A stretch of 64,000 nucleotides of DNA from Apostichopus japonicus (Eukaryota; Echinodermata; Holothuroidea; Aspidochirotida; Stichopodidae): the NCBI RefSeq assembly GCF_037975245.1, contig NC_092575.1:20721841-20785840 (forward strand), written 5' to 3'. Of this stretch, positions 2,811 to 58,858 are shown piece after piece. The translations under genes and the position numbers were made by a program. A model generated the notes under the pieces. It made no database searches. It saw nothing but the letters and a program-made list of their open reading frames with translations, and was not told where the DNA came from. Within the stretch, counting starts at the first letter, position 1, and each line of letters begins with the position of its first letter.

Positions 2811-5800
2811 GTAAGTAATTAAAAAAAAAAATTTGGTAACTTTTAAGAACGCCCATTGCATTTTTTAATGTCTTTTTTGTCTCAATCAAGAATGTACGTG
2901 AATGGTATGTGTGTGCGTGTGTGTGGGGTCTGGTGGTATATTTTCAGGTTTCTGTCTTCTCCGCTTTACATAAATATGGTTATTAGAAAACTCAAAAAGG
3001 CATGTCAAAGGCGTTGTGTTGTACTGCTCGATTGAGACAAATATGTGTTTGCTGGGAGGGGAGAAGGAAATGTGGAAGGGGCGAGAATACATGTTTCCGT
3101 ACATTTTAGGGATCATATCACCCATAGGTTATTCCCTTGTATAAATCGCTAAGCTATTTTTTATCTCTTTCTCTCCACCTTTGGTCAACTAATCCTCTAA
3201 CATCAATCTCCTTTGCGTCACCCTGCTCCTATCTGAGACCTATCTGTATTTTGTGCTTGTGTTTTGTCCCTTTTATTTTCTGTTACTTGTCATTCAGCCT
3301 CTGAATTGCAGTTTACACAAGCACTCTTTTTGATCCAATAGAATTATTTGTTCACTTGAAAATGAAACAATTTAGCTAGGTAATTTTCTTTAATTTAACA
3401 AATAAATGTCATTACAAATGATAAAAAGAGGAAAAGGCAACGCGTACAATTTGCAGTTGTGATAACTATATGTTGAAAGTAGAATTAAATTTCTGTAGTA
3501 TTCTGTCATTAAGTGACTAATGTAGATCGAGAAAGAAAAAAATTCGCATATTAAATTTGCTTAGAAGTATAACAATGTTTTTTTGCTATAAACGCATTAT
3601 ATAATACCACTTGTTGTTCCAAAAAGTTATAAGCATTTCATGACGGAGGTATATCTAGTTACGAAAATATTGGTTCCAACGGGACGGGAGGGGGGGGGGT
3701 GGGGTTGGAGGGCAATTATCTGTAGGTGCCCGAAAAGCTGGGCATATGAAAAACATCGGTGAAAAGAAAAGAATGACTGCAAGCGAATTTAAATACGTGC
3801 ACCCTGTACCTCAGTGTTTTGAGCCAAATTATATATGTTGTCAATTGTTAGTTCAGAAGGTTCAGAAGTTATGAGCAATTCATGACGGAGGTATATCTAG
3901 TTACGAAAATATCATTCTTTGCAAAAGTTCACGTTTTCTATCTAAAATATTTTCGAATTGATTCCAACCAATTATGCAAATCTTAAAACAAAAGTTTGAC
4001 CAGTTTTAAGCTTAACATATACCTAAATGTTGACAAAAAGTAAGTACGATTTACTTCTATTTAATATATAAGTTATTGTGAATAACACAATACATCCCCC
4101 TTTCATGCTTCAACGTTCACATCAGTTTACAAACAGTACGTACGGGTTGCTACGGATGGGTGCAGCTGCTCTAAGACCTGTGTACGTTATTCTGTTGTTC
4201 TCAAGGCGTTCGGACCCAGGATTTCTCGAGAGTGGAAGGGGGTTATGGAGACGGGACGGGAGGGGGGGGGGGGTGGGGTTGGAGGGCAATTATCTGTAGG
4301 TGCCCGAAAAGCTGGGCATATGAAAAACATCGGTGAAAAGAAAAGAATGACTGCAAGCGAATTGAAATACGTGCACCCTGTACCTCAGAATTTTGAGCCA
4401 AATGATATATGTAGTCAATTGTTAGTTCAGAAGGATTGGGGGAGGGTGAGAAGGGTTATGTCGGACCCCATTCCCGTATGTTACTCCTATATCCGTATAG
4501 CCAAACTCCCCCCCCCCCCATGCACTGGCGTCTCAGGCGTTTTTCTTCTCGTGACCATTTCTTTGATTTGTTTTTCTGCTATGTTTTCTGCTACACAGCT
4601 ATTCAACAGAGGTACGTCTTTAGTTTCTTGTCCAATGCTTTCTATGAAGAGACCTTCGGTCAGGTATTTATAGCACCGACCACAGACAAACCTACCAGTG
4701 GCTTCCTATGGCTTCCGTACCTTAACTTTGAACGTTATTTCTACAATGTGGCATTCGGTAACTTTACCGTTATCGATCTGCCCTACGAAGCCAACCCTCT
4801 TGGCACCGGGGAACAACCGTCAACCGTCGTGGTCGAAACCGATGCCGATGTTGTCGTTTACGGTATTCATCTCCGACCTCAGCATTTCACCCAGGACAGT
4901 TTCACCATTGTACCCAAGAGATCTCTCGGCACAGAGTATTACGTCGCTTCTTACAGTCCTTTGCAGTCCTGGAGTCCGGTATTTACTGTAACCGCGGTTG
5001 ACAACGACACTGATGTCCGCATTGCGTTTTCGAACCGTTTTAGCTACGAGGGCGGTATTTACCACAGAAACCGACCATTGACCTTAAACCTGGAACAGTA
5101 TCAAACCTACCAATTTGAAACCCGTTTTGACCCAACTGGAACCTACATCTCTTCTAACAAACCGATAAGCGTCAGTTCCGGTTCGGAGTGTTCCTACGTT
5201 CCGCATGAAATTGGTACTTGCGATAACCTTCTCGAGCATCTCATTCCAGTGACGTCATGGGGTACTACCTACGCCCTAGCACCATTTCGAGGTCGAGAAA
5301 CAGCCGGTTACATTATCAGAGTAATATCGGCATACCGTAACACAAGGGTTCGTTTGAGTAATTCAAAGACCCCGAGAGTTCTCCAAAATGGTCGATTCTT
5401 CGAACTGAGTATCACCCATAGAGGAATTCTCGAGATAACCTCTAATAACCCCATCTTGGTTCTACAATATCAGAAGGGTAACGACGTGAATGATCTTGAA
5501 AATGGCGACCCATCTATGGTGATTGTTCCCTCGAACGAGCAGTCTAGACGAGGTGACATCATATTTCCTGTCTACGAGATCGAATCTGCACACGTCACTG
5601 TTCGATTGGTCAACGGTGACCCTCGCTCATTGCTGCTAAACGGCCAAAATGTAGAATGGGAAGTCCTCGATACCGATTACGCAGGTGCGAAATTACTACA
5701 GAGAGATGTTCCTTCCGGTTACCACGTGATAAGTCACCTGTTTCCCAAGGCAGAAATGTCAGTGTTGGTGTATGGTAATGAACATCAGAAATCCTGGGCT

Positions 5801-8800
5801 CACCCTGGAGTATATCGATTTGAAAGACGACCACCAGGTAGGAAACTAGTCATATTGTAAATGGTAAAACTACGCTTATTTGTATGTATGTATGTGTACT
5901 TATGTGTATGGATGTATATGTCTGTGCGTGTGTATGTTTCTATGTGTGTATGTATGGGTGTATGTAAGTATGTGTGTATGCATGTGTGTATGTGTCATAG
6001 AAATTGATCCTTATTAATTTCTATGGTATGTATGTTTTCATGTGACTAATTACATCAGTATTTGAGATAATAATGCATATATGTTTACCATTTTGCTTGA
6101 CTATCACACTTACTTGATTGCAGGAGGAGGAGGAGGGGGGGGGGGAGGGATTAGTAAAAATAATTGTCGGGCTTGCGATTTGGTTTTGTGCTGTAGTCAA
6201 TCCCCCGCCCACCCCCCACCCCCACTACACACCCAGAGTCTACCCTGAGCAATCCAGACTCGTCCCTCGTAATATTGGTCACACCTGTCTGTCTTCTGGA
6301 CATTTATGTTCGTTAAATATTTAACTCATTTATTCTACTTTCTATCTTTAGTGGAAGCAAGGTGTTCGATCTGGGGAGATCCACATTACATTACATTCGA
6401 CGGCAGAAAATACAGTTTCCAAGGAGACTGTGAATATACACTTGTAGAAACATGTGGAAAGTACGGCGACTTGTACCCCTTCAGAATTATCGGTGATAAC
6501 TTTAAGTTTAGACCCTCTCATATGTTCTCACTTCTGGGATCATTGAAGCTCTTTATCTTCGGGAAAGTCTACGAACTAATGCCTAATAACGAAGTACGAG
6601 TAGATGGTGTGATCACAAAGCTTCCGTACTCTGACCGTTTCGGTGTCTCCATATATTACAACATGCCGCACCGGGTAAGACAATGATTACGGAAATAATA
6701 AACAGACTGTTCATTCATACTTAGTAAAGATTCCTAAATCCTATTGGTCCATTCAGGTCAGCTGACCGTGGTTAATCCTGTGAGTAACGCACGGTAAAAT
6801 TACGGGGCATCACTTTAATAAATCAATGGTTATAAGTAACCAAAAATGTTTTGTTTTATGATTTTTCCCCCACACAAATGGTAGTGTATGAATGAACGGG
6901 GTTAATCAACGGTCTAGCGTGCGTTACTCACATGATTAAGGCACTCCGGGTGTTAATGCAATCGCTGGATGCACTCGGGCTCCGCCCTCGTGCATCGCTT
7001 GCATTATCACCCGATCGTGCATTAATCATGTGAGTAACGCACGCTAGACCGTTGATTAACTCCTTATTTAAAACAGCATTGTATAACCTCCTAGATACAG
7101 TGTTGCGTCTAGTATAATGATTACCATTAGGCTACGAGGGAGCGAAATCCGCCCTCCCAACCTCCCCCTCCAACCTCATCCCATCGAGCTTGTAATAAAT
7201 TGATAAATTGTCCCGTAAGGACTTAAACTATCGTAAGATATTGGTTCTCTCAACCAATGCTTCTTACTTTAAGTGTAGCCCTCGGACAGAAACTGAATTG
7301 AGAACCCACTGGTTGAGGGCCTTCTTGCCGGGCGTTGGGACAGGGGGTGGGGGGGGGCTCGATTCTGTCTAAAAGGAAAAGAAAGGGAAAGCTTACTTTA
7401 GGAAAAGTTGGATCCATTTTGACATTTGAGTATACAGTTATTAAATCTAACTAACACAAATTTTCAACCTATTATTGCCAAGAAATGACGCCTTGATTCA
7501 GTGATAAAGACAAAGACGTAAGGACAATTGTGTATATCTTAGTAACAGTTCGCTTATTTTCTCTATAATATATTTATTATTAAAGTTATTTTTTCGTGAA
7601 CAAAATTTTCATTTATTACAGATTTTGATGACAGAGTTTGGATTAGCTATTCGCATTGATAATAAATACAATGCAGAAATCGGGCTCCCCTCAAGTTACC
7701 AAGGTGCAGTCTGTGGTCTCTGTGGGACCTACGACGGTGATTCTTCAAACGACTTTGTCTCACCCAGGGGCGATCAGGTAAGTGATCTCTTTAATACGTG
7801 CTAAGAATATCAGAGTCGACCTGACAACCTGTTGAAAGAACAAATGGGAAGATTTACCATCTCAAAGGATAGAGAGATTAGGGAATAATATGGAAAACTT
7901 TTTGAAGAAAACCCAACTATAGGAGGAGAGAAGAGAGTGGTTAACAAAAGAAACAAGGGAACGCGCATACAGCGATATAAAATAATAGCATATAAGTTAA
8001 GGAACATTAATGTAATTGTGTGTGTCATTGCTATGTTATGCCACTAGCCAGGTCTAAACAATCATGCATACGCAAGGACAGAAAGAGGTATAGAGAAGAG
8101 GGGTTGCACAATTTTGTATCACGCTATTTGCTTTTCTAGAAAAACGGGGGCCTATAAATTCATGTTAATTTGGGGTAAGGTGAATTTAGGGATCATTCGA
8201 GTGATTCTTCCTTCAACGTGAGAAAACTCGAATACATATAGCTTTTATCCCATAGAACAAAAGCTATAGTCACATACTCAAGTAAGTCCATATAGTGGTA
8301 GAAAGAAATAAAAAATCTTCTAGTAGTGTCTCGACCTTCCGATGAAGCGAATCTTCACAAGTCTGTATAACAGGCCAGAAACATTTTACAATTTTCCGAA
8401 CAAAGCGAGAGCAATTAACATTACGTATACATGCCTAGAGAACTTTTGTAACAGTGTTGTTGTACCCTACCAAATGTAGCGCAGTTCAAAACGTTTGAGT
8501 CGGATGGCACAAGTCTTCCTCTGACGAACCTATGACTAGGAGGCTCATTCTTGAGTTATCTTCTTCTTCCAGACATAATGCTGTGATTAAGCTTAAAATA
8601 AGATTTTTACAGTTGTACTGGAAGCATTGATCTCTTTGAAGACATCAAAACCGTCAGCACGCTTGGTAGGTCATTTCTTGCAGTCATTGAAATAACTATG
8701 GTATTAATTATGCGAAATCCGTCGCTGTGAGTAGCCACTCTTGCGCTATGCTGCTTTAGGCGTAAAGACAACTGCACTAGTGTAGTACTACTACTACGTG

Positions 8801-11800
8801 CTAGGACAGTCATATATAGGAACCACTGAGACCTGAACACAGTAGTTCCTGAACCCATGCCTACGTGCGGCAGTATGCTTGCCTTATTCAGGCCACAAAT
8901 GATATAACTAACTTAGCCTAGGCAGGCATTTTTGTGCTTGTTAATTCTGACACTTGGATTTTTTTGCTGGCCAGACTTGTTATCTCCCATGACAACCATA
9001 AGACCATGCCAAATTTACTTGTTGGTTCCATTGAATTATTTTAAAAATTTAAATGTTCTTGTCAGATTTCCTCAGTTGACAATTTTGCGACCAGTTGGGT
9101 TGTGAATGTTAGAGAAACCTGTGAGGCGTACAGACCAGTGGAACCCTGTGATGATGGTGGCGGCTCACCAAACCTGCCAAGAGCCAGACGACTCTGTGCA
9201 ATTCTACGACAGCCGAGAGGTACTTTCGCAACTTTTCTGTTCTTTTAGAAGACTTCTAGAGCTAGGTTGAAAACTAGATGTTTCCCTTTTCAACACATGT
9301 CCTCATTCATGACTCTTATATGTAATATTGAATTGTCAAATTATGCATATTGCCTAGTATTCATCCATCTACATTCCTCCCCACCTCCCTCTTTTGCACA
9401 ACCTTTTGTTACATTGACAATGATGTGGGGACCTACCTTAATCCATAAAAGAAAATCCTGTTCCCTAATGTAGCAATAAACTCATCCCTAGCTTTATATG
9501 TTGTAAAGAAAGTACAAATGGTATCAAAATATATATGCCAGTATATATATCTAAAGCATATAAGACTAGCAAAAAGTATTTTTTTCTTTGTCTCTGATAT
9601 ATTGTAAAATGGCCTTGAATTTTTTACTTTGTGAGTTCAATGATTGCTCTCTTTCTCCCTGCAGGTCCTTTTGCCGATTGTTTGGACGTCGTTGACTCAG
9701 ACCCTTACTATGAGACTTGCATCTATGATCTCTGTGCAATGCTTCCAGATGATAGTATGCTCTGTAACCACTTTGAGCAGTATGCACAGGCTTGTCGTAA
9801 CTCGGGAGAGAGACCAGGGGATTGGAGGGCGACAAGAAATCAATGTGGTAAACATAAACAAGACTACAATGCCTTTAGAAGTATAAAACTCTGAAATGTA
9901 GCTTTTTATTATCTGTTTTATTTTTGAGTTAAAAAGTTTTAATAAAATAGGAATGAATTCACACATACAAAGAAAAACTCATCACTCCCTCTCCACCTTG
10001 GCAAGTATGAGCGATTTTAGTTTCTTTGGAGAGTATTTCACTGATTTCTTTTCATGACAGAATTTTAGTGAGCACTTTAATGATTAGATCATTTTGTAAC
10101 CATGGTTAGCTGGCAAATATACAGGGTGTGGGAAAGAACTTTAAAAAAATATAGAAAAAGAAAAGAACAAAATATATACAGAAAAGAAGAGGAAATCATA
10201 GGAAATATTCATGAAAAATGATACAAAATAATTGTTTTTAAAGCATAGTGATGTGTACTTGTATGGCCATCTGAATTTTAATTTTTTTTTAAGCAGGAAT
10301 TTGTTACTTCCCCTTATTTAAACCAAACAGACTATAAATGGTAAAATGCTAAGAGAAGTTATGTTTCCATGCCATCATCTTCTCCCAATCCAAAACAAAG
10401 TTAATATTCATATGTTGTTTAGTAGACATTTTATTGCTAATTTAAATGATCTAAGGTTTCGTTTAGACCGTTCAGATAAAATTTTAATTAAGTCGGTCCA
10501 AGTAAATTTTGCTGAACATTATTCTTTGATCTTTGTTGTATGTTAGCCATTGACTGTCCAGAGGGCTTGGTATACAATCCATGTGGAACAGGATGCCCAG
10601 CTACGTGTGTAGACGAAAACCCATTGGATGATTGCCCAATGAGCTGTCTGGAGACCTGTGAATGTCCACCAGGTACGGTCCTAGACGGTACCAGGTGTGT
10701 CAACCAGTCCATGTGTGGTTGTCCACTACCCGATGGGGGATATGCATCGGTAAGTCATATGAAGTCATCTTAATTTCATTTCAAAGTTTAGTAATAACAG
10801 TAAAACTGACTGCAGACATCTATAAATAAAAATGAACTATGAAAGTATTTCACTAGAAATTATATGTAGTTTCCACTAGATTTTATTCCTTACTGTGGGT
10901 ATTTTAAAATGGAATCCTTCAATTTTTTTTTGTGGTTGTCAATATTAGTACCACTTTTTTTTACGACCGCTACCATTTTCTTTTATGACCCCTGGATACC
11001 CATTCCAGCTCCCAGCAATGCCTATTTTGTTTATCCTCGTCATTAGTTTTAATATTACTCAAGGATTAGGAATCGTTCAACAGCACTTTAAACCATATTC
11101 AATTAATGATTGTGGATAAAAGCACAAGCCTTATAAAGCATTCTTTTGTTTGAAGAGGGTGAACAACCCCATTCACCACTTTGTCAAATGCTGTGGCAGG
11201 TGAAATCACCCCAACTCAACATCACTGCAGTGCAGCTGTGGTGAACAAAGTTGTTTCTAGACAGTTGAAAAGAACAGAAGCAAATTTTTGTTAAAGATAA
11301 CTTTCACAAGTAACTTGGCGACTAACAAGAAAGTATTCTCGGAACCAAGAGATGTCCGGTTAGATAAAAAAAAATAACAGAATAGTTTCCTGTGTTTCTT
11401 GGGCTCCACAATACAAAGAACTGAAGCACACACTGCCATGGTCTCTTCTGTAATATTTGGAATTTCTTGTGTTACATAGTGAAGTCTGCAATTTGAATGG
11501 GCTGTAGCCTACATAATACAGCATGCTTCATTATGTTCAATGGCCATCAGTATTGCCCCAAATATGCTTAAAGTCAAATAATAATCAGCAATTTCAACAG
11601 CATTTTACTGCCTTTTTTTAAAGTAGTTACCCAACCTGAGATATTTAATTATCTATTTCAATAATCCTCAATAGTTATAGGTATTATATATGGAGGATCA
11701 GAGGCTGTAGAGCAGGGTTTCCCCTCACGTACCCCCCAGGTACCCCCTATGGATATCAGAGTTGTCCACGAACCCCCAACTGTTCGAGACACAATCTGAG

Positions 11801-14800
11801 TCATTATTATACTATAATACAATGCTTCGTAAAAGATCAAGTTCATAGTGTGATATTGTACTGTCATGCGTACACCACCTTCACCAAAGTCATGTGGCCT
11901 GTGTCTGTTTCATAATTCAGTTATTTATCACAACGGTACGGTACTACTATGGCAACATATGCATATGGAACGCCAAAAGAGTTTGTCGATATATGGGTAC
12001 GACTTTTGTACATAACTAAATTATATGATATATCAGATTTTAGTTCAACAAAAAAGTACTCTAGTTTTGACTTTCAGAAACGTCTCACGAATCCCCTGGG
12101 ATGGACTCACACACCCCCTGGGGGTTCATGCACCCCAGTTTATAAGGAACCCCTGCTGTAGAGAAAGTACTTTTGAAAAAAACCGAGCATCAATTTTTGA
12201 CACATTAACATTTTCGGCTAAGACCTGATGACTTATAAATACAGTAGTGTTAAGTAGTTAAAGTTAAGTTTGTCCCAACCTGTGAGCGACTTACAAAATG
12301 CCGATTGTCCACTACAATAAAAACAACGAATCGTTGGACATCTTATCTGGATGAGCCAAGATCTGGATTAAGAGAAATCCCAATGAGCCCAATTTTGCCT
12401 TGTTGTGCACAGGTTTGGTTTCTATGGAAACAAGATCACCTCAACATTCAGCGACATCATGTGAGATCTACAAGAGACTTGTGTAGATAAAGATAACGTA
12501 GTATTAAAATTTATCTATTTCCGACTTTAGGATGGAGAAGAAGTGATGTTTGAAGACTGCACCCTCACATGTTTCTGCCAAAACGGAACCTTAGAATGCA
12601 CAGAAATCTTCTGCGACGAGAATGCAGAATGCGATATCCGTGGAGGAGTCCGGAATTGTTTCTGCAACGATGGATTTGTCGGGAACGGTACTTCTTGCGA
12701 ACCAGGTAAGAATGACCTCAATCTTAACGTCTGTTCTTCAAATTCTTTTTATCAGCTCATATCTTCTGTTTATCAAGAAGGAAGAGTAGAGAATGACAGA
12801 GGAAGAGAGAGGGCGCTCTTACACTAGACCTGGATCTGATCTTGTGATCTTATCAGAAGATCGCATTACCAGTGAAAAACTTGATCTGGGCGCATTTACA
12901 CTTAAAGGTGTGAAGACTCGCACAAAAAGAAACGTCTAATGCCGGTATTCTGACCTAGTTTTGAATGAGGTGTAACAGAAGTGTTAGACACCACCATCTA
13001 TCCCAGAAAATACACACAGCTTGCTACCGTCTGTAATTAGACGCTATAGTGTACAGTCAGTACATACAGCTGTGGTCAATACCCACAGCACAGTGTATAA
13101 ACGATACAGCGATGGACATCTCAGGTCCAGCTAAAGATAACAAGGTATCACGTTTCATTACTGTCTGCATTTTGTAGTGACACGAACAAAACGTCACTTG
13201 CAAGCAACAGAAAGTTAACATTTTCAGATGGCCGCACGCGGTTTGTGGCCAGTCTTCAGTGCCTTCAATAGCTTGTACTCTGATCCTCCCTGTGTGCACG
13301 GCAAGTGCTTAATCGGAAGTGGCTTCCAGACTTGAGTACTTCAGTTTACACACTGGTTAAATTTTCAGCACTACATGCACTTCTTTACTGTGAAGTTTCA
13401 GTGAGGAAGTCGGCAAATGCATAATGTAAAGTTCCCTGATGATCTTGGGTCACTGACAATCTTAGAGCATTTTACATTCCAAGCATGATCTCATGCTTGG
13501 GTCAGATCCTCCCCACCCCCCTCCCCCCACCTTTGTCAGGATCCTAATTGGAGGGATCAGATCCGGCTCTGATCTGCATTTATAGTGCAACCTTAATCTA
13601 GAGCACAGATCTGATCCTGAGCAGGATCGAGATCAGATCAGGAGCTAGTGTAAAAAACATCCAGAGACAAGGACATTGGCATGTTGTGCAATATTCTGGT
13701 AGGACGATTTGTGTTGAGATATTCTTTGAGCTCTGCAGTAATTCTCTTGTTCTTTGTTGAAATATATGATTTTATACGATCCATAATGTAATCGAAGGTA
13801 TTTTGAGAAGATATATTAAAGTCGAATAAGACTAAGTGCGAACTACTAGTTTGTTTGTTATTCTCTCAAAGGTTAAAAATCCTGCACGTAAAAATTCAGG
13901 AGAAAGTCCTAACCTCTTGTTTGTTTCTCTGCATATTCTTTAGAGTTCCTTGTGAGATTGATAAGTTAATAACCACAAACAATTCAAAGATGTGCTCTTT
14001 TTTTATTAAACCTTTTTCAGCTCCAAAGTATTGCCAAATTTTTGGTGATCCTCACTACAACACGTATGATAATGTGATGTATAGATTCGCCGGAGAGTGC
14101 AGCTATAAGCTGACCGAGACCTGCGGAAGAATTCGTGGCGTGCCGACTTTCAGAGTCGTCGGAACTAACGAAAAGACCTTCGATGGCTACGAATCCACCA
14201 ATCTGAAATCGATACGACTGTCGGTCAAGGGAAAGACTTACGTGCTGGACAGCTCGGGTCAGGCAACCGTTCAAGGAAGCTACGTGGATTCTTATCCATA
14301 TGTGGATGAAGATAGTGGCATAGTGATCACTCTAAGTTACCCAAGTCTTGTGAGTATATTACTTATATTCATGGTATAGTTGTAAGTATTTGATTACATA
14401 TGCAGCCTTGTATTTAGTAATGTACCAAATGCAAAGGGAGATCATTTCAGTAAATTAGTAAATATATAGCTAAAAGTATCAATTTCATTAACATGTTTGA
14501 ATCTGGCAACTCTAGAGCAAAGGAAAAACTTGTCAAGAATTGAATTAAAAAAAATTATGATGGTAAACTAGCATTTTTTGGCCTGTTGAGTTCAAAGATA
14601 AGATAGAATAACCTTAATATTTCTGTTTTGCATCCGTTGACTCTACACTCAGATGATAATGACCGACTTTGGTGTGAATATCAAGTATAATATCTTGGGC
14701 AACGGCTCCGCATCGATTGAGGTACCTCCCTGGTATTTCGGAAAGCTGTGCGGTCTCTGTGGAAATGCTGATGGTGACCAGAGTAATGAGTATAAACTGC

Positions 14801-17800
14801 CAAATGGAAACATTGTGAGTACATGACACATACAGTGATATCGCATTGTGAATGTCTTGAACACAGAAGCTTTGATTCTCAAACTTGGTTGGCTACAATA
14901 CATGTGGGAAACTCTCTCTTATACACCAAACAGCAGTTGAAGATTGATAGAAGATAGAAATATTGATAAAGTTCCATAATTTATGGATATTAATTTGCAA
15001 TAGAAAGATGATTGCAGCATCTGTGGATTATTGTATATATTTACTTGCAGTCTTTTATATTAATTGTCATAATAGGGCTACAATAGTTACAAAGTTAATT
15101 ATGATAATAATAATACAGTAATTATAAACACAGTCATCTATCAAGAAAACCTGTTCCTGAAAAATAATTAAAATAATTAATTAAAAAGGCAACATGAATT
15201 AAGTGTGACATAGGACGAACCTCAAAGAAATCAAGACAAGATTGAGCGGATCAAAGTTTGCTCCAAAGTCTTGGTGTCACAACAGCTAAAGCATGCGTTT
15301 ATAATAATTGTGGAGGAAGATCGCTAAGCAAACCAAAAGAACTTTATTCAGAAGATCTTAATAACGAAAACACGATCGATAAATGATACATTTCTGATAT
15401 GTAATCATAGCCATAGATACATTATTTCATTCTGTATATCTTTTATATCATCAATGCTCTCACACATTTAATTGTATGGTTTCCATAAACCGTTCATGCT
15501 TTCTCAAAGTTATCCATTTTAACCTTACTCAGGTCACATCACCGGTTGCTTTTGCCAATGAATGGAATGTCGGTTTCTGTCCGACAGAGGCACCCATCAA
15601 CCCAGAGCCGTGTCAGGATAACCCAGAAGCCTTTGCAGCAGCCAAAGATAACTGTTACTTCCTGATTGCAGACAACGGTACGTTCAGCTCACTTTCAGAA
15701 TTCCAAAGAGTTTAACATAAATTTCTCTTATAGATGTTATACAGAGGACATTTTAACCCTGTCTGAACGCAATGTGAAAAACGATTCTTTCATTTGAAAA
15801 ACTTGCCTGTGATGAATATTCATTGGGTGGTAAATAACCAAGCTTAGTATCAATATAAAAAAAAAAGGAATATTCTCCAAGAGTAAGTTATATTAATTTA
15901 TAAAAATGAAAAACAAAATAAAATTATAAAATGACATTGGTGAATATTCATCACACATTTTGTGATTTCTTTTCAATTCTGTTTCCATAATTGCTCAAGC
16001 TTATTCTCAAACAAAATACAATCCCCATCCCACCTCATCATAAAAGAAAAGGATAATGAGAAGGACTAACCTTACATCAACCTGTTATTATAAAATTCTC
16101 CAAGAGTAGTTTTCTTTGAATATCTTTGGTACACATTTCTCATTTCTCAATGCTCTATCATTTTCAGGGCCGCTTTCGCAGTGTCATGATTTTGTCGACC
16201 CCTCTCCGTACTACGAGGCCTGCCTGTTCGATCTCTGCTCCATATACCCATACAGGGAGTTTATGTGTGACAGTGCTATGCATTATGTGGAGGCATGTCA
16301 ACACGCTGGAGGAAGACCAAGAAACTGGAGGAATCTGGTGCCTGATTGTGGTAAGAAAGTCTGGACATATTTGGTTTATAATTTTCAAGGTTGTAATATT
16401 GAAAATAGTGATCACTTTAATAAGCATTTCATTATTTTTTAACCTTGGAAATGGATTATTGATTCTCTCAGAAATGTTGGATTGTCCATTTTAACACTCG
16501 TCAATGTCCGGGGATGACCAGGGGTGCTTTACCGTTGAGGAACTTTTAGTTTTTGAAAAGTTCTATCATTTTGAGCAGACCATAAGTTGTTGACTATACT
16601 GATGAATATTACAATAGTACAATACATAATGGAACTACAATGGCTAACAGATTTACCTTATTTTAACTGATAAACATGCATATGCATGTTAGTTGTAGTG
16701 TTATGTCCCCAAAAATGGTTTATTGACTTTCCAAGTACTTTAACTTGCGTTGTTAAATATACATTTATAAAATAGTAGTGATTTTACTTGAGTGAGAACA
16801 TGTGATATGAGTCATAATGTCCTTCCTTATTTATTTGACTCACAGCACGCAGCATTTGTAGATCTTTAGAAACCTGCATTAAAGAAAGTTAAATTACACA
16901 TTCATACTTTGACTGATTCAAATGTCTACAACCCCTTTAATCTAATTCATCACATTGATGTTATTTAACACTCTTTTTGTAGCTGACAAAGTTGTATTTC
17001 ATTTTCTTCATTAATCCTTATCCCGGTACCAGATATGAGATGTCCAATTAATTCTACTTATGGTGATTGTAATACTGGCTGTCCAAAGACATGCTCTAGT
17101 CCCGAGGGGCTCCCTCATTGTCCAATGGACTGTCTCGAGACCTGCGAATGTCCACCTGGATACGTTCTCGACAACGACCGTTGTGTTCGTCTGTCTCAGT
17201 GTAGGTGTCCAGATCCTGATGGTGGTATGGTACAGGTAGGTTAAACATTCTAGTTGGGGGTGGGGGGGGGTGGGTGATGCTTGAAACAGGTAGGTCAACA
17301 GTTTATATTTAGTATGGAGAAGGTTGTTCATTATTGGGGGTGGGTGGGGTGGTGGGGTGGGTGTTGGTTGAAACAGGTAGGTCACCAGTTTATATGTAAT
17401 ATGAGGAAGGGGGATGTGAAAGAGCTACAGGTAGAATAAACAGTTTATTCATTGTTGGGGGTGGAGGTGGGCAATTGGGGGGGGGGGGTGGTTAGTGGTT
17501 GGTTGAAACAGGTTGGTCAACAGTTTATATCTAGTATGGAGAAGGGGGGTGGGGAAGAGCTACAGGTAGCTTAAACAATTTATTCACTGTTGGGGGTGGG
17601 TGGGGCGGTCGGGTGGGGCAGTGGGGTGGGTGATGCTTGAAACAGGTAGGTCAACAGATTTTATGTAATATGGGGAGGTGAAAGAGCTACAGGTAGAATA
17701 GACAGTTTATTCATTGTCAGGGGTGGGGGGATGGGGGTAGGGGGGTTGAAAAAAGTAGGCCAACAGTTTATATGTGATATAGGGAAAGGGGATGGGGAAG

Positions 17801-20800
17801 AGGTACAGGTAGGTTAAAAAGTTTATTCATGGTGGGGTGAGTTGTGGTTGGTTGATTAATATAGGTAGCTCAACAGGTTTTATTTAACATGGGGAAGAAG
17901 GACGGTGCAAGTAGGTCAAACAGTTCCTTTTTACTGGTGTCGTGTCCTGCATATATTGAACTCTTACATTGTATTCGTTATAGTACCGGAAGGACCAACA
18001 GTTTCTTTTAATTTATCTTCAATTTTCATTCTTTCTTCAGCCCGGAACCGTCCATGTGAACTCGGATTGTACGTTCCGGTGTAAATGCATCGATGGCGTC
18101 TACACTTGCTTCAATATTACCTGCAGTGAGAACGCTGTTTGTGAACTTCAAGGAAGCTTTCAGGATTGCTACTGTAATGAAGGCTACACAGGAGATGGGT
18201 TGGAGTGCTATGCAGGTAAACTACGTTTGTTTCTTTTTTTCAATTTTACGATAGCGAGGTTGGAATCACGAGTCCTGTGGGGTAATGAACATTCATCGTC
18301 ACTGACACTTTAAGAAGTACCACTTTACATTTGCAACACCATTTGTTAGCTGTGATTGTATAAGATGACACAAACCTCTGTTTATTTGAAGCTATAAATG
18401 ATCAATAAATATACAACACGACCATCTGAACTCAGTTTCTTGCGTGCTAGTGAAGGTGGTTAAAGTGGTTTCATACAAATGTTTTAAACTTACAGGCTTG
18501 GCCAGACTTGTTTCCAAAGGCTTGTTTCCAAAGAAATTCAGTAACATTTTTTTCTCTAAAGACCAAAGAGATTATATATGCTCGACCAATCCTGTTGATG
18601 AGTTGGCATGCGGGTGTTAATGTACGAGTCCCATAGAGTTCCAGTTCAAACAAATCACTATGCAAACAATATTATCCATTTAAAATTGACATTTTCAAAG
18701 CATAGCTGGAATTGATGGAAATAAAGTTATTTCTAGTTTAGTATGTCATACTGACAGTTTACGCAAGGGGAAGGTCACTTTAAAAGCTGGTTGTGTTTGC
18801 TGTGTAAATCTTCTGTTTCGTAAACACGGAAGGTAAATAATCTTGAGCCCAAAAAATGTATACATAAATGGCACAATGATAATATGGTGATAAATATCAC
18901 TTTCTTGTTAAAGTTTCCTTTGTTAGTGTTGGCAAACCCCAAAGTATGTGATTAATCTGTTTCAGAATCACGACACGAAGGAAGGTGCGACCCATCGTGG
19001 TACACACCGAGAGATGGTAGTTGCTATGGTTACTATGCTCAGCCAAAGTCCTTTGAAGATGCTGCAGCTCTGTGTGAGAGGAACTACGGTTACCTCGTCG
19101 CTATCTCAGATGTCACAGAAAATGCCTTCGTGACTCGCCTCTCGAACGGCGAAAGAGCTTGGATCGGAGGATTACGTAACACTTCTCTGGGTGAGTCTAT
19201 ACTGGTAACATGATCGATGCTAGAGGGCGGTAAACCAAATGTGGAGCCATGGCTTATATCGGTAGATAGGCAAAGGACACAGTGGGGACAGGGAGAGGTA
19301 TATGGGACCGTAGGGGGAGTTGTCTTTCTGACAGATTTTAAATGTTCAGTTTGATCTCAGGAAATAGAATGATATCTGTTATAAAGCGTTTAGCTCGTTT
19401 TCCAACGTTTGCTTTTGAGTGATCGTAAACAAGCAGATAGTTGTGAATTGTACACAAAGCTGGGATGTGAGTGGTAACTAAAAGAGTAAAAAGCCATAAA
19501 TTGGACAAGTTGGCTTCTTATCAAAAGTTGGCTGGACTGACATATTTATTCTGACAGGATCATCTGTTAGGTTGTTTTATATTGAAATTTATTTTCTATT
19601 TTTGTTTTGATAGTCTTATTGTTGCTATTTCTTCGGCTGTAATAGTTTAGTATTTTAGTTTTATTGTATGCTGTCATATTTTATTGCTTTTGTCTTTAAT
19701 TTCTGAATTTTATTGCTTTTTAATAATTATTGTTAAGTTATTTATTTCTGTAATTCTTAGGATGCAAGATTTTTAAGCTGTAATATTTTTTAAGTTGTAT
19801 TATTTTATGCGTTTCTGTGAAGCTGCTTTGAGATCAGTCTTTTGATGTAAAGCGCTATATAAGAATAAATTATTATTATTATTAGAGGCAGAGTAAACCA
19901 AAATGAGAAAACAGGTCACATGAAAATAGATTGGACAGACAGGTTGAAATATTGAACAATGAATGGAGTTGAACTAGACAAAACTTAGCAGTGAGGAGAA
20001 AGAAAGTGGGAGATGGGGCAGGGAAGGGGGGAGGGGTGTGAGGTGGGCTGTAGGAGATAAACTTTGCAGAGGTGTGTATAAGAGGAAGAGAAAGTTAGCA
20101 ACTTTAGATTAAGGAGAGAAGAAGATTAACGAAACAGAAAGAAGCCTAAAACAGGAGTGTTGCATATTATACAAACTTGTCATTTTCTGGTTTTAGATTC
20201 TGCTTGGCAACGGACTGGTGCTACATACTCATTCCGTTACATAAGAAAGCAGATGCCCGAAGGCATCCATAGAATGGAGTTCAGCGTGAGAGCTCGCAAG
20301 AATGCCCACATAGCCCTCAGCCCTTACGACAGTGACAACCCGGACATGTATGAAATCGGTAAGATTGGTTTTATCTAATAAATTAAAATAGTTTGTAATC
20401 AATTAATTAAGTAATTTAAAAGACTATTAGTGAAGCAATGTCAGCCTCACTAAGGCCTTAGTCTGCTCCTGTGTAAAATATTCCACGATCGTACTTAAAA
20501 ATCTTGGCAAATTTTACCTGAGGTGAAATAAGAGATAAACTAAACCCTCTGAAAACAGCATCTACTTTTTGAGAACTAGATGCATTAATAATCTCTCAAA
20601 TTTGCAGCCAAAATGATAAGATGAGGATGAAAATTTTGTCATTTTCTTTTGTTTATTTGGAGTTTTGATCTAAAAAGCCCTGCCTTCCAAATTTTTACCT
20701 CCGTGACCAATATCCTAATTTCTTTGGGCTAGCTGAAACCCCGTAAAAAATTCTTTTGAGACCTAAAACCACCGTATGTACAAACTTCCATGTGACTAAC

Positions 20801-22111
20801 TTATTAAACTACGCATTGATTTGATTTGATTGTAATTGGTTGAACACTGACTGAAAGTGAGTCAACAACAGCACAGACACAGACACACATTTATCAAAAT
20901 GTAAGAAAGAATTCACTGCACAAACAGGGAGGATATTTACAATAACAGATTCCATCGAAAACATTGTTTACCAATCAATTTCTTGAGGTTTCTGTTACCT
21001 GCCCTTTGACCCCTCATAAAACGCTTGGCAACCCATAGTAGGGTCATGCCTCTTTAATATGTATAATAGTCATTTTTGCATCAACTTCACCCTTCCATGG
21101 GAGAGCTAACCAAATTTCCAACTATGATTAATAGCGTGCACAATTCTTGTTACATTGCGACATTGCAGTGATCGGAGGTTGGTCAAACACTAAATCTGCA
21201 ATCCGTCGGTGTAAGGGATGCGATTCTGAAGTCGAGGTCGATACTCCCGACATCCTGAATCCAAGACTTGATATTCGTTTCTACATCACCTTCCTGGCCG
21301 GTACGATAGAGGTCGGTTTGCTCGGTGAAGATCCGTTCATGAGCTGGACCGACTCCGATCCCGTAGAGTGCAACTACATCGGATACACTACTGCACTCAA
21401 TGGCGGACGCTGGAAGTTCTACAGTGAGTAATAACTAGATAGTATCTCGTCTTCTGATGGGGGAGGGGAATGAGGTTATTGATGACGGTGAGATTTCATT
21501 TGGAGGGTGGTAGGGTGGGGGGAGAGGCAGGTAGCATGGGCCTACCTACATTGCAACTGACAGTACTCCAATGAAAAGGAGACAAAAAATGAATTCTGCT
21601 TACTTCCAGTAAGGCAGGTATTAATTAACACAGAATATTTAACAATATATGGCAATTTTTGGAACAGCTAGGATTCCCAAGCTAATTCAAAAAAATTAAG
21701 CTTTTGCTCATGTATTTTTAGGGAGATCTTACATTGCAAGTGTGAAAAGCTTCCTGAAAAACCTGAAACTAAACTTAACTTATTTTTTTCCTGAATTTTT
21801 TTCTAAAGATGAAAAACCATCATTTCATTAAAATTTTATCTCAACCTTCAACGTTTTTTTTTGTAACGCCACCTCCCGCTTTGCAATTTGCCCTCTTTTT
21901 AGATGAATTTGTTTGGTTGAGCGGAGAGCCTTGGATATTCGAGAACTGGAGACGTGGAGAACCTAGCAATCACCAGGGTAACGAGGGCTGCATAGAAACC
22001 AACTTTGTGACGGAAGGACTGTGGAACGATCACCAGTGTTCCGCCCGAAAACCGTTTGTCTGCGAAATTCCGCAGGATCCCCATTACGTCGACCAAGACT
22101 TGCTCCCTTAG
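2699..22111 (+). CDS. Secreted IgGFc-binding / VWD / C-type lectin mosaic protein (FCGBP-like), 18 exons
   Basis: Coding exons: 2699-2810, 4599-5837, 6352-6674, 7622-7777, 9066-9219, 9665-9847, 10547-10749, 12531-12705, 14021-14349, 14653-14814, 15533-15677, 16168-16350, 17033-17235, 18041-18215, 18966-19190, 20197-20358, 21169-21423, 21903-22111. All junctions are GT-AG and in phase; the total is 4593 nt, 1530 residues plus TAG. Order: signal peptide (1-26), IgGFc-binding domain (about 45-440), VWD-C8-TIL-EGF (451-848), a second VWD-C8-TIL-EGF (849-1247), C-type lectin N-half (1250-1322), FAMeT domain (1323-1461), lectin C-half (1462-1525). There is no transmembrane segment, so the product should be secreted. 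By family analogy (FCGBP, zonadhesin, gel-forming mucins) it should be a disulfide-linked extracellular or mucosal protein; adding a lectin domain suggests glycan or microbe binding (inference). AATAAA follows at 22218. The exact orthologue is uncertain, so no symbol is given. Confidence 0.9.
3625..4435. repeat. Local duplications in intron 1 of the FCGBP-like gene
   Basis: A ~175-bp block starting at a G tract (3687-3862) recurs nearly identically at 4258-4435; both contain GGTGCCCGAAAAGCTGGGC and ATGACTGCAAGCGAATT. A second ~46-bp block (3625-3670) recurs at 3867-3912; both contain CATGACGGAGGTATATCTAG. The later copy of the large block lies just upstream of exon 2. Confidence 0.85.
4599..5837 (+). 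CDS. Exon 2: IgGFc-binding N-terminal domain
   Basis: One 1239-nt exon carries the whole IgGFc_binding (FCGBP N-terminal) region, about 413 residues. Family-like features are the repeated beta-rich segments with 'TSGFLWLPY', 'VYGIHLRP', 'GTEYYVASY', '[13 protein letters not shown]', '[17 protein letters not shown]' and '[13 protein letters not shown]'. In vertebrate FCGBP this region precedes the VWD array, as here. The open frame runs back to 4436, but 4436-4598 is intron: it contains a C tract and a pyrimidine-rich acceptor. IgG does not exist in invertebrates, so the name is only a family label; the ligand is unknown. Confidence 0.88.
6352..12705 (+). CDS. Exons 3-8: first VWD-C8-TIL-EGF module
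   Basis: Exons 3-4 encode a von Willebrand type D domain: it starts [14 protein letters not shown] and ends with [11 protein letters not shown]. Exon 5 links it to the C8 domain, which continues through exon 6 ([20 protein letters not shown]...). Exon 7 is a cysteine-rich TIL domain ([18 protein letters not shown]...CECPPG). Exon 8 is a VWC-like start plus an EGF-like domain ending [14 protein letters not shown]. The GDPH tetrapeptide is the site of Asp-Pro cleavage in several mucin and FCGBP D domains. CGLC is the disulfide-isomerase-like motif associated with multimer formation in VWF. Both functions are family knowledge and are not shown for this protein. Confidence 0.9.
6901..7060. repeat. 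160-bp palindrome (foldback/MITE-like) in intron 3 of the FCGBP-like gene
   Basis: The arms start GTTAATCAACGGTCTAGCG and end with its exact reverse complement. About 42 bp per arm are perfect; the inner part pairs imperfectly around CTCGGGCTCCGCCCTCG. A related single arm (GTGAGTAACGCACGGT) lies at about 6780-6796. No coding capacity and no clear target duplication. Confidence 0.85.
11713..12155. mobile_element. Non-autonomous hAT-type element, intron 7 of the FCGBP-like gene
   Basis: Terminal inverted repeats are CAGGGTTTCC at the left and GGAACCCCTG at the right (typical hAT-like CAGGGGTTCC). Both sides are flanked by the identical 8-bp duplication CTGTAGAG (11705-11712 and 12156-12163). 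At 443 bp with no transposase, it is a MITE. Confidence 0.88.
12819..13653. mobile_element. DNA element with inverted termini, interrupted by a MITE
   Basis: The termini are TTACACTAG...GGATCTGATC at the left and GATCAGATC...CTAGTGTAA at the right; the interior is rich in GATCTGATC-type words. The TTAA-flanked MITE at 12902-13268 lies inside it, so the larger element is older. No flanking duplication is visible and there is no coding capacity. It lies in intron 8 of the FCGBP-like gene. Confidence 0.6.
12902..13268 (+). mobile_element. TTAA-flanked MITE, family A, copy 1
   Basis: It begins TTAAAGGTGTGAAGACTCGC; the right end AGTCTTCAGTGCCT is followed by TCAA instead of TTAA. About 360 bp, the same body as 29176-29536 and 60299-60667. 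TTAA target use is typical of piggyBac-type elements (inference). This is the copy with the damaged right flank. Confidence 0.82.
14021..18215 (+). CDS. Exons 9-14: second VWD-C8-TIL-EGF module
   Basis: Same order and same splice phases as the first module. VWD spans exons 9-10 ([21 protein letters not shown] ... [11 protein letters not shown]), C8 exons 11-12 ([20 protein letters not shown]), TIL exon 13 ([18 protein letters not shown] ... CECPPGY), EGF exon 14 ([14 protein letters not shown]). The exon lengths 329, 162, 145, 183, 203 and 175 nt compare with 323, 156, 154, 183, 203 and 175 in module 1. GDPH and CGLCG are both kept. Intron 13 starts inside a minisatellite (17233-17930). Confidence 0.9.
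17233..17930 (+). repeat. G-rich minisatellite containing repeated 5' splice-site copies (intron 13)
   Basis: About five imperfect units of roughly 120-140 bp. Each has two ACAGGTAG(G)T..AACAGTTTAT motifs separated by GGGGTGGGTGGGG stretches. The first ACAGGTAGGT is the real exon 13 end and donor (cut after 17235). Copies of CAG|GTAG recur with GT at 17290, 17377, 17431, 17566, 17646, 17693 and 17809; degenerate copies lie between and after them. Confidence 0.85.
18966..22111 (+). CDS. Exons 15-18: C-type lectin domain split by a FAMeT domain
   Basis: Exon 15 encodes the first half of a C-type lectin fold: [17 protein letters not shown], then [18 protein letters not shown] and AWIGGL. Exons 16-17 encode a domain resembling the farnesoic-acid O-methyltransferase-like family (Methyltransf_FA): [15 protein letters not shown], then [14 protein letters not shown] and GRWKFY. 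Exon 18 resumes the lectin: [20 protein letters not shown], then GLWNDHQC and PFVCEI, and ends at TAG (22109-22111). Exons 16 and 17 both begin and end in phase 1, so they can be removed as a cassette without a frameshift. WND is present; the usual EPN or QPD is EPS here, so canonical calcium-dependent sugar binding is uncertain. FAMeT domains in animal proteins are generally regarded as binding or structural modules. Confidence 0.85.
19560..19884 (+). mobile_element. 3' end of a non-LTR retrotransposon or SINE
   Basis: AT-rich 3' region ending GTAAAGCGCTATATAAGAAT followed by (ATT)n. The AAGCGCTATATAA-(ATT)n end is typical of CR1/L2-type tails and the SINEs that use them. No coding part is left. 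Lies in intron 15 of the FCGBP-like gene. Confidence 0.6.
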
Positions 22112-35055: not shown

Positions 35056-36232
35056 CTTGAATATCTTTTGATGGTTTTTGCATGGATTCTCAAAAGTGTA
35101 TGATAACGGTTGTCGGCAAAAAAAAACCTTCAATGTAAATTGCTAATATTTGATATCCTTCTTATGTAGGCCTAACCATATGCGAACCCATGAATTTTCT
35201 TATACCTGCATGCATAACAAAGCACAGAGGTGATATTTTCCAATAACTTTCCAAAGAATTAAGGTATTGTCTAGGGACCAAATTTCACCTTGAAACAAAA
35301 CCCCAAAAAATCATCTCTTTATGATTATTTAACATGATTAATTAATAACATAATTAATTAATTAAATATAACATGATTAATTCATATGATTAATTAACTT
35401 GATATTGACTTCAAAGAGTTAAATGACACTTAACATTGAGTTTATAGCAGATACTTTTTTTTTGGCAAGCCATTGTATTTTGTTTAACGTAATTGTGACA
35501 ACATACGTTCGGACCATGCGACACAAGGCCATGCGTGATAAAAGACAAAGCACAAACAGATTAAAACCAGAGGTCGTTAATAGGTTCTTAAATTTCTTCT
35601 TAAAGGCTATAAATAAACATAAACACTTTAGCGTATCACATTAATGTACTTCCGATATAAATCTAGTAGTTACCGTCACTATAATGAGGGTATATGTTTG
35701 GTGAAATTACATACCAACTTTATGTAATCAACTTACCGAGCTATAAATACGCAGATCATTGAATAAGTAAAACACATTTATCTGCGGCGGTATCTCTTTG
35801 AGCAAATTAAGGTTGACCATTTAGCATCAAAGATAATCGAATTATACAAATTGTCTTCGGCTTATTTATTCATCGGATCTGTTGTCTATTTGAGAGCAAA
35901 GTTTCGGAGGGCTTTGGAAAAGAATTATGAGGATGGTATACATAAGCTTATACTGTAATTAAGCTAACATAATTAAGCTAAACGCGCAAATCCGTTGCGT
36001 TCATAGCAAATGACCACGCACGTCTTGAAAAAAGAACAGCCGAAACAGTCATATGCAGTTTCGTTTTCCTATAGCAGAGGTAAATTGGTCCCATTTCTCG
36101 CCGAGCGCTTCAGTTACATGGACTAAGTCTGTCTAAATTAATTTGTTAGTATATACTGACGTTTCTGAAAGATCGTATAGATATATGCGAAGGTAACGAA
36201 TCTGTACTTTTTATGGTATTATACGGGGCAAG

Positions 36233-53448
<17,216 letters not shown>

Positions 53449-56013: not shown

Positions 56014-57372
56014 TATATATATATGAAAGTTCATTTGAAGATATGAAAATCAGGAGACTGATGGATACCTTTAGTGGTCCTTAAGCTGACTGTCTGCTGG
56101 CATTTCAGAATAAATTGTTCGAAGTATTAAATTTATAGTTTTTTTGTTTGTTTATTGATTGTTGATTATTGTAAAACGTTGATGTAAGGTACATGTGCGC
56201 AAAATGCACGTCCCGCAGGCAATTTTATTTTGAGGTGCGAGATAAGCGGCCTTTTGTCTTGAAATAATCAGGGCCGTGAAATCGAGGAAGAACATGAAAT
56301 ACATTGCCTATACTCTGAAGAAGTACTCAATCAGTTCAAAGTTTGTATACTTTATGGCCCACCTACAGACTGACCGTTGACTAGAGCTTGGGTAGTTGAG
56401 GGGTCAGGAGGATACAGCCCGGGACCGCCGTCCATTGTAATAAGAGGGCCCGGAAAAAATGGCGGGTCCGGAAAACTATAGTATAAATAATACTGAAATT
56501 AAGTGTGTGTTTGCGTGTGTGTGTGGGGGGGGGGGGGGGTGAGGGCAATATTCAGCATTATGAGCTCGGAGCCATGTCTGCGTGGGGTTCAGGGGCCCGT
56601 TATATGGCCCACGGTGAGTTTTGCGTGTTTTATAACTTTTTTAGAACCTTGAACTGATTCAAATCAGCAGTTTTGATGTAGACCTGTCTAAGTATTTTTT
56701 GTTTTAGTTGGACATGACCAATTTCATTTGTGCCACCGAACACGGGGGAGGGGGGGGGGGAACATGTCCCCTTTGGCGACGCCACTGAACTGGTGGTGTA
56801 ACTAGCTGGACAGACCATAGGTTTTCGACTTACTTCTCTACATGCCTACTTGTGATATTTCAACATAACAGATGGACAATGCGCATCTACAACCTTCTGA
56901 TCTTTTATTTCCCACTGAATAGGTTCCTTAATTGTCAATGTGTGGCCCGCAAATATAAATACCGTGCCAACCCCTGATGTTAGTGACACCTTTGACTACT
57001 GTTGTACATGGCTAGGTGGAAATTTCAAGAAATAAATAAAAACAGCGATAAGTAGGTGCCCTACATATTACCAATCGGAAGTCGTGACACAGTTGAAAAA
57101 AATCCCTTCCGTCAAGTTCGAACTCATCGCGTAACACGTAAGGCACACACTGATATGCCTGCATTCAGTTTATTGCTGTACTCCCTTCGACCTGCATACA
57201 TTCTGTGATTAAACCACACAGCTGTCATTCACTCTACAGCAGATCGTTCCAAAAAATAGTTGTTAACCAGAGCAGATGAGAGGTCGTTAGGCAGGACGGA
57301 TTCGGTGAATTATCTATTTTTAATCCTTACCTCTGAATATCTTTTCGATATTAATTTATATCTTAAAATTTC
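56014..57372. other. Upstream region of the nucleoredoxin-like gene
   Basis: Likely contains its promoter and 5' UTR; no clear TATA box was identified. G tracts at about 56525-56540 and 56747-56760. No other gene recognised. Confidence 0.4.
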
Positions 57373-57684
57373 ATGCAGATGGCAGGTCCGATAGCAACCC
57401 TCCTTGGCGCTGTTGTGCAAAACGGATCGAAAGATGAAATACAAGTTTCTTCTTTTTCGGGCGAAGGCAAGGTGATAGGTCTATACTTCTCCGCACATTG
57501 GTGTCCCCCCTGCAGGGCTTTTACACCCAAACTCGCTGACTTTTACAAGAATTTCAAGCAATCGCCGCGGGGAGATGAGCTGGAAATTGTTTTCGTGAGC
57601 TCAGATAAAACCCAGACAGATTTTGACACCTACTTTGGTGATATGCCATGGCTTGCATTGCCATTTGAGAAAAGAGACGTAAAG
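57373..57684 (+). CDS. Nucleoredoxin-like protein, first coding exon (partial gene)
   Basis: 104 codons from ATG to a GTAAGC donor at 57685 (phase 0). The sequence contains IGLYFSAHWCPPCRAFTPKL, with catalytic Cys44-Pro-Pro-Cys47, then LEIVFVSSDKTQTDF and MPWLALPFEKR, all hallmarks of the nucleoredoxin/tryparedoxin-type thioredoxin fold. The second half of the fold (the IPTL-type segment) must lie in a later exon. It was not found in the remaining 6.3 kb, so the gene runs off the window. A second in-frame ATG at 57379 could be the real start, and the TGCAG before it could be an acceptor joining a 5' UTR exon. Family role: cytosolic thiol-disulfide reductase. Whether it is the multi-module nucleoredoxin or the short single-domain kind common in invertebrates cannot be decided here. 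Confidence 0.85.
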
Positions 57685-58858
57685 GTAAGCACATCTATTA
57701 TAACTTCCAAGGGAACATGATGCAGTAGTCGAGCTGGCTGTAGGCCTAGTCATATCCCAAATTAACTTGGGCTTGGCCCAGAAGGTAGCATATTCCCAAC
57801 GTTAGGCTAGTCAATTCTATATTCCAATAGCTGGTTATAGATTTGGCTGTATCCAGTAGACCAATGAAAATTATTCCTAATTTTATTGATGAAAGTGAAA
57901 CTTAGTTGTTGATTAAAGTATGCACTGGCTTATAGAGTAAACAGACCAGGCTGTCTGGGTATAAATTACGGTCCTATCCTAGACATAGGCCTATGTGATT
58001 TAAAACAATTACAGCAACATATGTTGTCAGTTTCTATGATTCCAAGTTTAATTATGCCTTGATTTCACACAAAAAAGGGAAGAAACAAGGAAGAAACCCA
58101 TGCTAGATCTTGGATTGACAACAAATGCAAATATTGGAGCCCAGAAGAAGCCAAATTGCAAACACAATATTGACATTGGTAACTAATGTAGCCTACTTCA
58201 GGGAAATACACTCATTACATATAATAGAGTTAGCTTTGTCTGGTTTGCACAGCTTTATTACAGGTATAGTTATCTGTATCATTTTCCACGCACTGTTCGA
58301 CATGTTTCCCAGAGAGAAGATGCTGTGAAGAATTTGTTTCATGATCAAGCTGATAAGGAAATATATATGTTACAAACATATCCCTGTGCCCTACAGTACT
58401 GTATCTGTACTCAACAAAAAGCTCTGTTCTTATTCAAAACATAATGACACAAATGCTTGTATTTACATTTGTGTATATGTATATCTATGTATATATATAC
58501 TGTATTGTAGACCGAGTAATTCTGGGTTTTGACTTTCACTTGTAAATCTGTTTCGTTTGCAAACATTCCAAATGGATGAGGTTTCAATGATTAATCTGTA
58601 ACTAAAGCTCTTGAAAAGCATTTGCCCAGATGACTTCACAGACCCACTCCCCTCCCCTCCCCCGCCCTGTTACTATGATCCAAAATCCTGGAGTAGCTGG
58701 AGGTTTTAGCCAGTCAAAATAGGTTTCATTCAATCATTCATATCTAGAATTACAGTAGGGGCAAGATCTTGACTTGGAGTTATTCAACTAGCAATGTGGT
58801 ATATTTGTTTGTCTTCAATATAAGTTTCACAAATGTTGTTTGTCACAAGAAAATCCTT

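Follow-up and report, generated by a model that had tools for sequence, protein, structure and literature searches.

A FAMeT domain nested within a C-type lectin domain in Apostichopus japonicus

Can a complete protein domain be carried inside a C-type lectin domain, and if so, how did it get there and what does it do? The question is raised by a gene in a stretch of 64,000 nucleotides of the holothurian Apostichopus japonicus (contig NC_092575.1, positions 20,721,841 to 20,785,840 of the forward strand; hereafter the window), for which a sequence-only reading had placed the halves of a C-type lectin domain in exons 15 and 18 and a FAMeT domain between them in exons 16 and 17. Our results confirm that exons 15-18 encode the first part of a lectin, a complete FAMeT, and the remainder of the same lectin, and the borders, splice sites, and phases given in that reading hold: the introns joining these exons are all GT-AG and phase 1, and the reading frame closes with a stop codon. 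The elements concerned are as follows.

Exon 15, 18966..19190, + strand: first part of the C-type lectin (Lectin_C profile positions 2-46; half A), with the first canonical cysteine and the WIGG strand.
Intron 15, 19191..20196, + strand: 1006 bp; the insertion interval starts here.
Exon 16, 20197..20358, + strand: first half of FAMeT; 162 nt; both ends phase 1.
Exon 17, 21169..21423, + strand: second half of FAMeT; 255 nt; both ends phase 1.
Intron 17, 21424..21902, + strand: 479 bp.
Exon 18, 21903..22111, + strand: remainder of the C-type lectin (Lectin_C profile positions 54-106; half B), with the EPS and WND motifs and the stop codon.

Profile searches identify both domains. Exons 16 and 17 match the FAMeT profile PF12248 (Methyltransf_FA) over positions 4-138 of 140 (E 6e-32; 110.7 bits against a cut-off of 24.2). 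Scored singly, the lectin halves cover the two separate ranges of Lectin_C (PF00059) listed above; with exon 15 joined to exon 18 they give a single unbroken match to positions 2-106 of 107 (70.5 bits, cut-off 22.6), as expected if this junction rebuilds an uninterrupted lectin, and with the insert left in place Lectin_C is found in two pieces (63.8 bits). The 139-residue insert is thereby located between profile positions 46 and 54, directly past the WIG strand, and the spliced compound domain has 282 residues. In the C-type lectin fold, the flexible side that binds calcium is formed by the loop following this strand, and in mannose-binding protein the corresponding loop also carries ligands of a second calcium site. 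At E 0.001 or better, the insert-free lectin matches 160 distinct PDB sequences, the best of which include members of the mannose receptor family and collectins.

The nesting had been staked beforehand on FAMeT scoring as such, which it does, and on the lack of a second lectin half. With profiles built from relatives, the window's own copy excluded, the six frames of the window contain one half A, one half B, one first and one second half of FAMeT, the remaining matches having E of at least 0.6. In searches by tblastn and six-frame profiles, neither lectin half nor FAMeT half was detected in intron 15, no lectin half was detected in intron 17, and no second lectin half was found in the window.

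The nesting is further strengthened by five other loci. Using FAMeT and the lectin as separate queries against the genome (35 contigs, 671.6 Mb), we found the order half A, first FAMeT half, second FAMeT half, half B at no fewer than six loci, a lower bound, of which five lie on contig C15 and one on contig C17.

C15:20.74 Mb, the window.
C15:1.00 Mb, + strand.
C15:19.79 Mb, - strand.
C15:0.93 Mb, + strand.
C15:0.94 Mb, - strand.
C17:5.85 Mb, + strand.

Because the same order recurs at five further loci, the nesting is not due to chance. The joined frames are open and end shortly past the lectin, the FAMeT frame is open at all six loci, and FAMeT scores above the Pfam cut-off at each of them (weakest 26.4 bits, cut-off 24.2). 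With all phases allowed, a phase-1 site is top-scoring at 35 of the 36 inner borders. At each of the four other nested loci tested, the joined lectin halves outscore the interrupted form. Between pairs of the six loci, identity is 28-54% in the lectin and only 19-44% in FAMeT; as the order is retained at such low identities, the arrangement is old and kept, and since FAMeT has stayed open in every copy despite this divergence, at least one form of the protein probably requires it.

How the insert arose is illuminated by relatives that do not have it. The lectin search gave 69 matches, from which 20 loci were fetched, and among the other 49 those in nested loci were followed. The fetched loci merge into four nested genes (six loci), eight plain genes with both halves (nine loci), the single-exon lectin L029, and four loci (L026, L034, L037, and L041) that showed no half A and are excluded from the counts. 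All eight plain genes have an intron at the same position with nothing between the halves, and, with all phases allowed, phase 1 gives the top-scoring site at all 16 borders. FAMeT was not detectable in any of these eight introns (472-1328 bp; best E 0.16 in any run); as a control, five of the six nested FAMeT copies were each omitted from the model and recovered at E 1.8e-15 or better, taking the stronger hit. A single branch of the lectin tree (support 96/89) separates the six nested lectins from all others, and rooting on L029 as a single-exon outgroup makes the plain state the older one. Because eight lectins share the phase-1 intron without FAMeT and the nested lectins form one clade, we suggest that exon shuffling probably placed FAMeT, a single time, in an old intron of the lectin, and that the compound domain was then copied.

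The repeats found around the cassette are only short and weak and therefore give no hint of how it moved. In intron 15, a T-rich stretch at window positions 19540-19890 ends in a GTAAAGCGCTATATAAG...ATTATTATT tail, approximately 300 bp ahead of the FAMeT exon; we take this tail to resemble those of invertebrate retroposons.

What the two domains might bind can be approached through fold and motifs. A search by sequence for a solved FAMeT structure returned a single chance-level match (E 0.47), and our fold model is that of the single-exon FAMeT relative L009 rather than of the window's own copy. The prediction (pLDDT 89) is an all-beta sandwich without helix that resembles CBM66, galectins, and lectin-type sandwiches more generally. 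It does not suggest a Rossmann-type methyltransferase, and the fold match of this relative suggests binding rather than methyl transfer by FAMeT. On the lectin side, an alignment places the four canonical cysteines, which are paired in C-type lectins, in all six nested loci. EPN, QPD, and WND are the names of the calcium/sugar motifs of this family. The window lectin has WND; EPN is kept in all eight plain lectins, and its third residue in the nested loci is S, S, S, S, D, and N. In sequence terms this change hints at a shifted specificity, and it may represent one event because the nested lectins form a single clade.

The compound lectin forms the C-terminal end of a larger gene, the model of which is without its start and comprises the following upstream elements.

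IgGFc_binding exon, 4601..5837, + strand: PF17517, E 2.2e-61; donor site; exon start uncertain.
First VWD, 6352..7777, + strand: exons 6352-6674 and 7622-7777; PF00094; splice sites.
First C8 exon, 9665..9847, + strand: PF08742; splice sites.
First TIL exon, 10547..10749, + strand: PF01826; acceptor at 10547 or 10562.
First EGF-like exon, 12531..12705, + strand: PF12947; splice sites.
Second VWD, 14021..14814, + strand: exons 14021-14349 (PF00094) and 14653-14814 (similarity to the first VWD); splice sites.
Short exon between the second VWD and the second C8, 15533..15677, + strand: open frame and splice sites only.
Second C8 exon, 16168..16350, + strand: PF08742; splice sites.
Second TIL exon, 17033..17235, + strand: PF01826; splice sites.
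Second EGF-like exon, 18041..18215, + strand: similarity to the first EGF exon; phase-1 junction to exon 15.

One further exon, expected between the first VWD and the first C8, was searched for there and not found. The product is a large, probably secreted protein. The intron preceding the second EGF-like exon contains a 135 bp tandem repeat of 2.9 copies (window positions 17342-17730).

Altogether, we interpret the locus as encoding a VWD/C8/TIL scaffold that ends in a two-headed lectin, and we favor, with moderate confidence, a model whereby a FAMeT graft of single origin was copied and is normally included in a nested compound lectin on a mucin-like scaffold. In this model, the scaffold would consist of an IgGFc-binding part and two VWD-C8-TIL-EGF sets, with the compound lectin at the C-terminus. 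A two-exon FAMeT module with phase-1 ends would have been shuffled once into the pre-existing phase-1 lectin intron, after which the compound domain would have been copied into other genes. FAMeT, normally present in the protein, would fold independently into a galectin/CBM66-like sandwich with its termini close together, and the lectin would close around it via a disulfide spanning the insert. Two neighboring binding surfaces could thus be displayed on a scaffold that may polymerize, possibly in mucus, adhesion, or microbe capture. It is tempting to go further and picture a family of two-in-one lectins, with a galectin-like graft in the C-type lectin loop on several mucin-like scaffolds and with binding switched by inclusion or skipping of the graft or by its contact with the calcium/sugar loop; this bolder version we regard as rather unlikely.

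Several observations weigh against the model of a single graft that was copied and is normally included. A lectin tree with five nested rows gave only 81/92, and several branches of the lectin tree are long. The best FAMeT tree, which includes five of the six nested copies, does not group them, and lectin and FAMeT distances are without clear correlation (r 0.25, p 0.21). The acceptor of exon 17 at C15:0.94 Mb is the sole inner border at which a site of another phase scores better, and all relatives are drawn from one genome. On the side of function, a shared fold is no demonstration of activity, and sugar binding by either domain is only putative, the window lectin having EPS in place of EPN. 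With respect to origin, several insertions or swaps are possible: FAMeT might have entered the lectin intron repeatedly, or might later have been replaced from other FAMeT genes, and besides the ungrouped nested copies in the best tree, it is in line with this alternative that two stand-alone FAMeTs on C4 come closer to the FAMeT of the window (45% and 48%) than the other nested copies found do (30-38%). Yet the nested lectins are one clade, a single clade of nested FAMeTs is not rejected (p-AU, the P value of the approximately unbiased test, 0.256; five nested copies), and unequal rates would produce the same picture. The FAMeT tree neither confirms nor rejects a single insertion, and we hold repeated entry or replacement to be possible if unlikely. 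Far less probable is a mistaken gene model, in which exons 15 and 18 would come from two different lectins, or FAMeT would be a dead insert or a gene of its own. That such confusion can arise is illustrated by L009 and L010, at C4:0.43 and C4:0.57 Mb, each a single-exon FAMeT located between the exons of adjoining lectins, side by side with them and not nested; against a mistaken model stand the single half A and single half B in the window and in L012, L017, L018, and L044, and the same order at six loci with all frames open.

The sequence-only reading had also described exons 16 and 17 as a skippable cassette, which as a regulated cassette would be skipped together in certain tissues or following challenge, giving both a plain and a compound lectin from a single locus. 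The phases do permit this: exons 15 and 18 join in frame with the better Lectin_C match, at this locus as at the four others tested, removing exons 16 and 17 together keeps the frame, and the eight plain relatives show that FAMeT is dispensable to a lectin with this intron. Moreover, by a crude, hand-set splice score, the acceptor of exon 17 is the weakest of the three cassette acceptors at all six nested loci, which might favor skipping. However, among the 16 introns of the gene to which phases were assigned, mostly from the best-scoring site under a hand-set matrix, ten are phase 1 and six are phase 0. Phase 1 is thus the habit of the gene at its module borders. Since an extracellular protein built by exon shuffling ordinarily shows matching phases, their equality at exons 15-18 says little in favor of alternative splicing. 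Exons 16 and 17 are each divisible by three, which makes either alone skippable as well, and the open FAMeT at all six loci weighs further against the cassette reading. The skippable cassette is therefore permitted by phase and otherwise unsupported, and the plain form is plausible as a fold, given the insert-free relatives, but these are separate genes and no evidence that this locus makes one. A splice switch is possible, and a regulated cassette seems to us improbable beside the model of a normally included graft.

Other FAMeT copies in the genome show further arrangements. L014-L016 (C11:2.62-2.65 Mb) are a run of diverged FAMeT half exons in an apparent tandem array; the split between halves lies near the YEI border at which the nested FAMeTs are also divided. 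Two FAMeT fragments on C5, L020 (C5:2646781) and L021 (C5:2704329), have an identical translated match approximately 57.5 kb apart and represent either a recent duplication or an assembly duplicate. Cysteines at both FAMeT ends are present in L009, L010, and L011 and not in the nested copies; the C11 and C23 copies do not show them as such either, so they are no general marker of nested versus stand-alone FAMeTs.

In the rest of the window, a scan for RNA families and tRNAs gave one tRNA, a tRNA-Cys at 846-920 on the - strand (ARAGORN, anticodon printed aca; Rfam tRNA, 47.2 bits). We take the open frames at 36197-51670 (+ strand) to resemble an NRF-6 type acyltransferase membrane protein, the frame at 57367-57720, with a thioredoxin-like WCPPC motif, to be nucleoredoxin-like, and the frame at 37430-37921 (- strand) to resemble the end of a LINE reverse transcriptase.

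The architecture is real and repeated. Domain insertion by exon shuffling is a known process, but modules moved by exon shuffling usually come to lie between domains; in this gene, one domain is contained whole within another, on the C-type lectin's loop side. As far as the titles and abstract beginnings listed by searches of the open-licence PMC literature extend, the architecture is undescribed, as the sequence-only reading had supposed, and no C-type lectin with a nested FAMeT was found there. The insert-free relatives in the same genome offer a built-in comparison of before and after, and the nested loci provide a context for studying the function of FAMeT outside arthropods, which a sea star adhesive paper calls unknown (PMC9382459). 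According to that paper, the sea star footprint proteins Sfp1, 3, 4a, 5, 7, and 8 carry FAMeT, and the similar Sfp1 and Sfp2 carry VWD-C8-TIL; FAMeT is drawn there beside other domains and "C-type lectin" is unmentioned, whereas the FAMeT of the window lies inside another domain. Compared with galectins and CBM66, the L009 model shares the beta-sandwich (ConA-like) fold at an identity of 6-13% for the galectins listed and 11% for CBM66. C-type lectin proteins (PF00059) have in common with the window lectin the near-full profile match once the insert is removed, and differ from it in lacking the domain between profile positions 46 and 54. Finally, IgGFc-binding and VWD-C8-TIL mucin-like proteins have the same order of IgGFc_binding, VWD, C8, TIL, and EGF, to which the window gene adds its C-terminal compound lectin.
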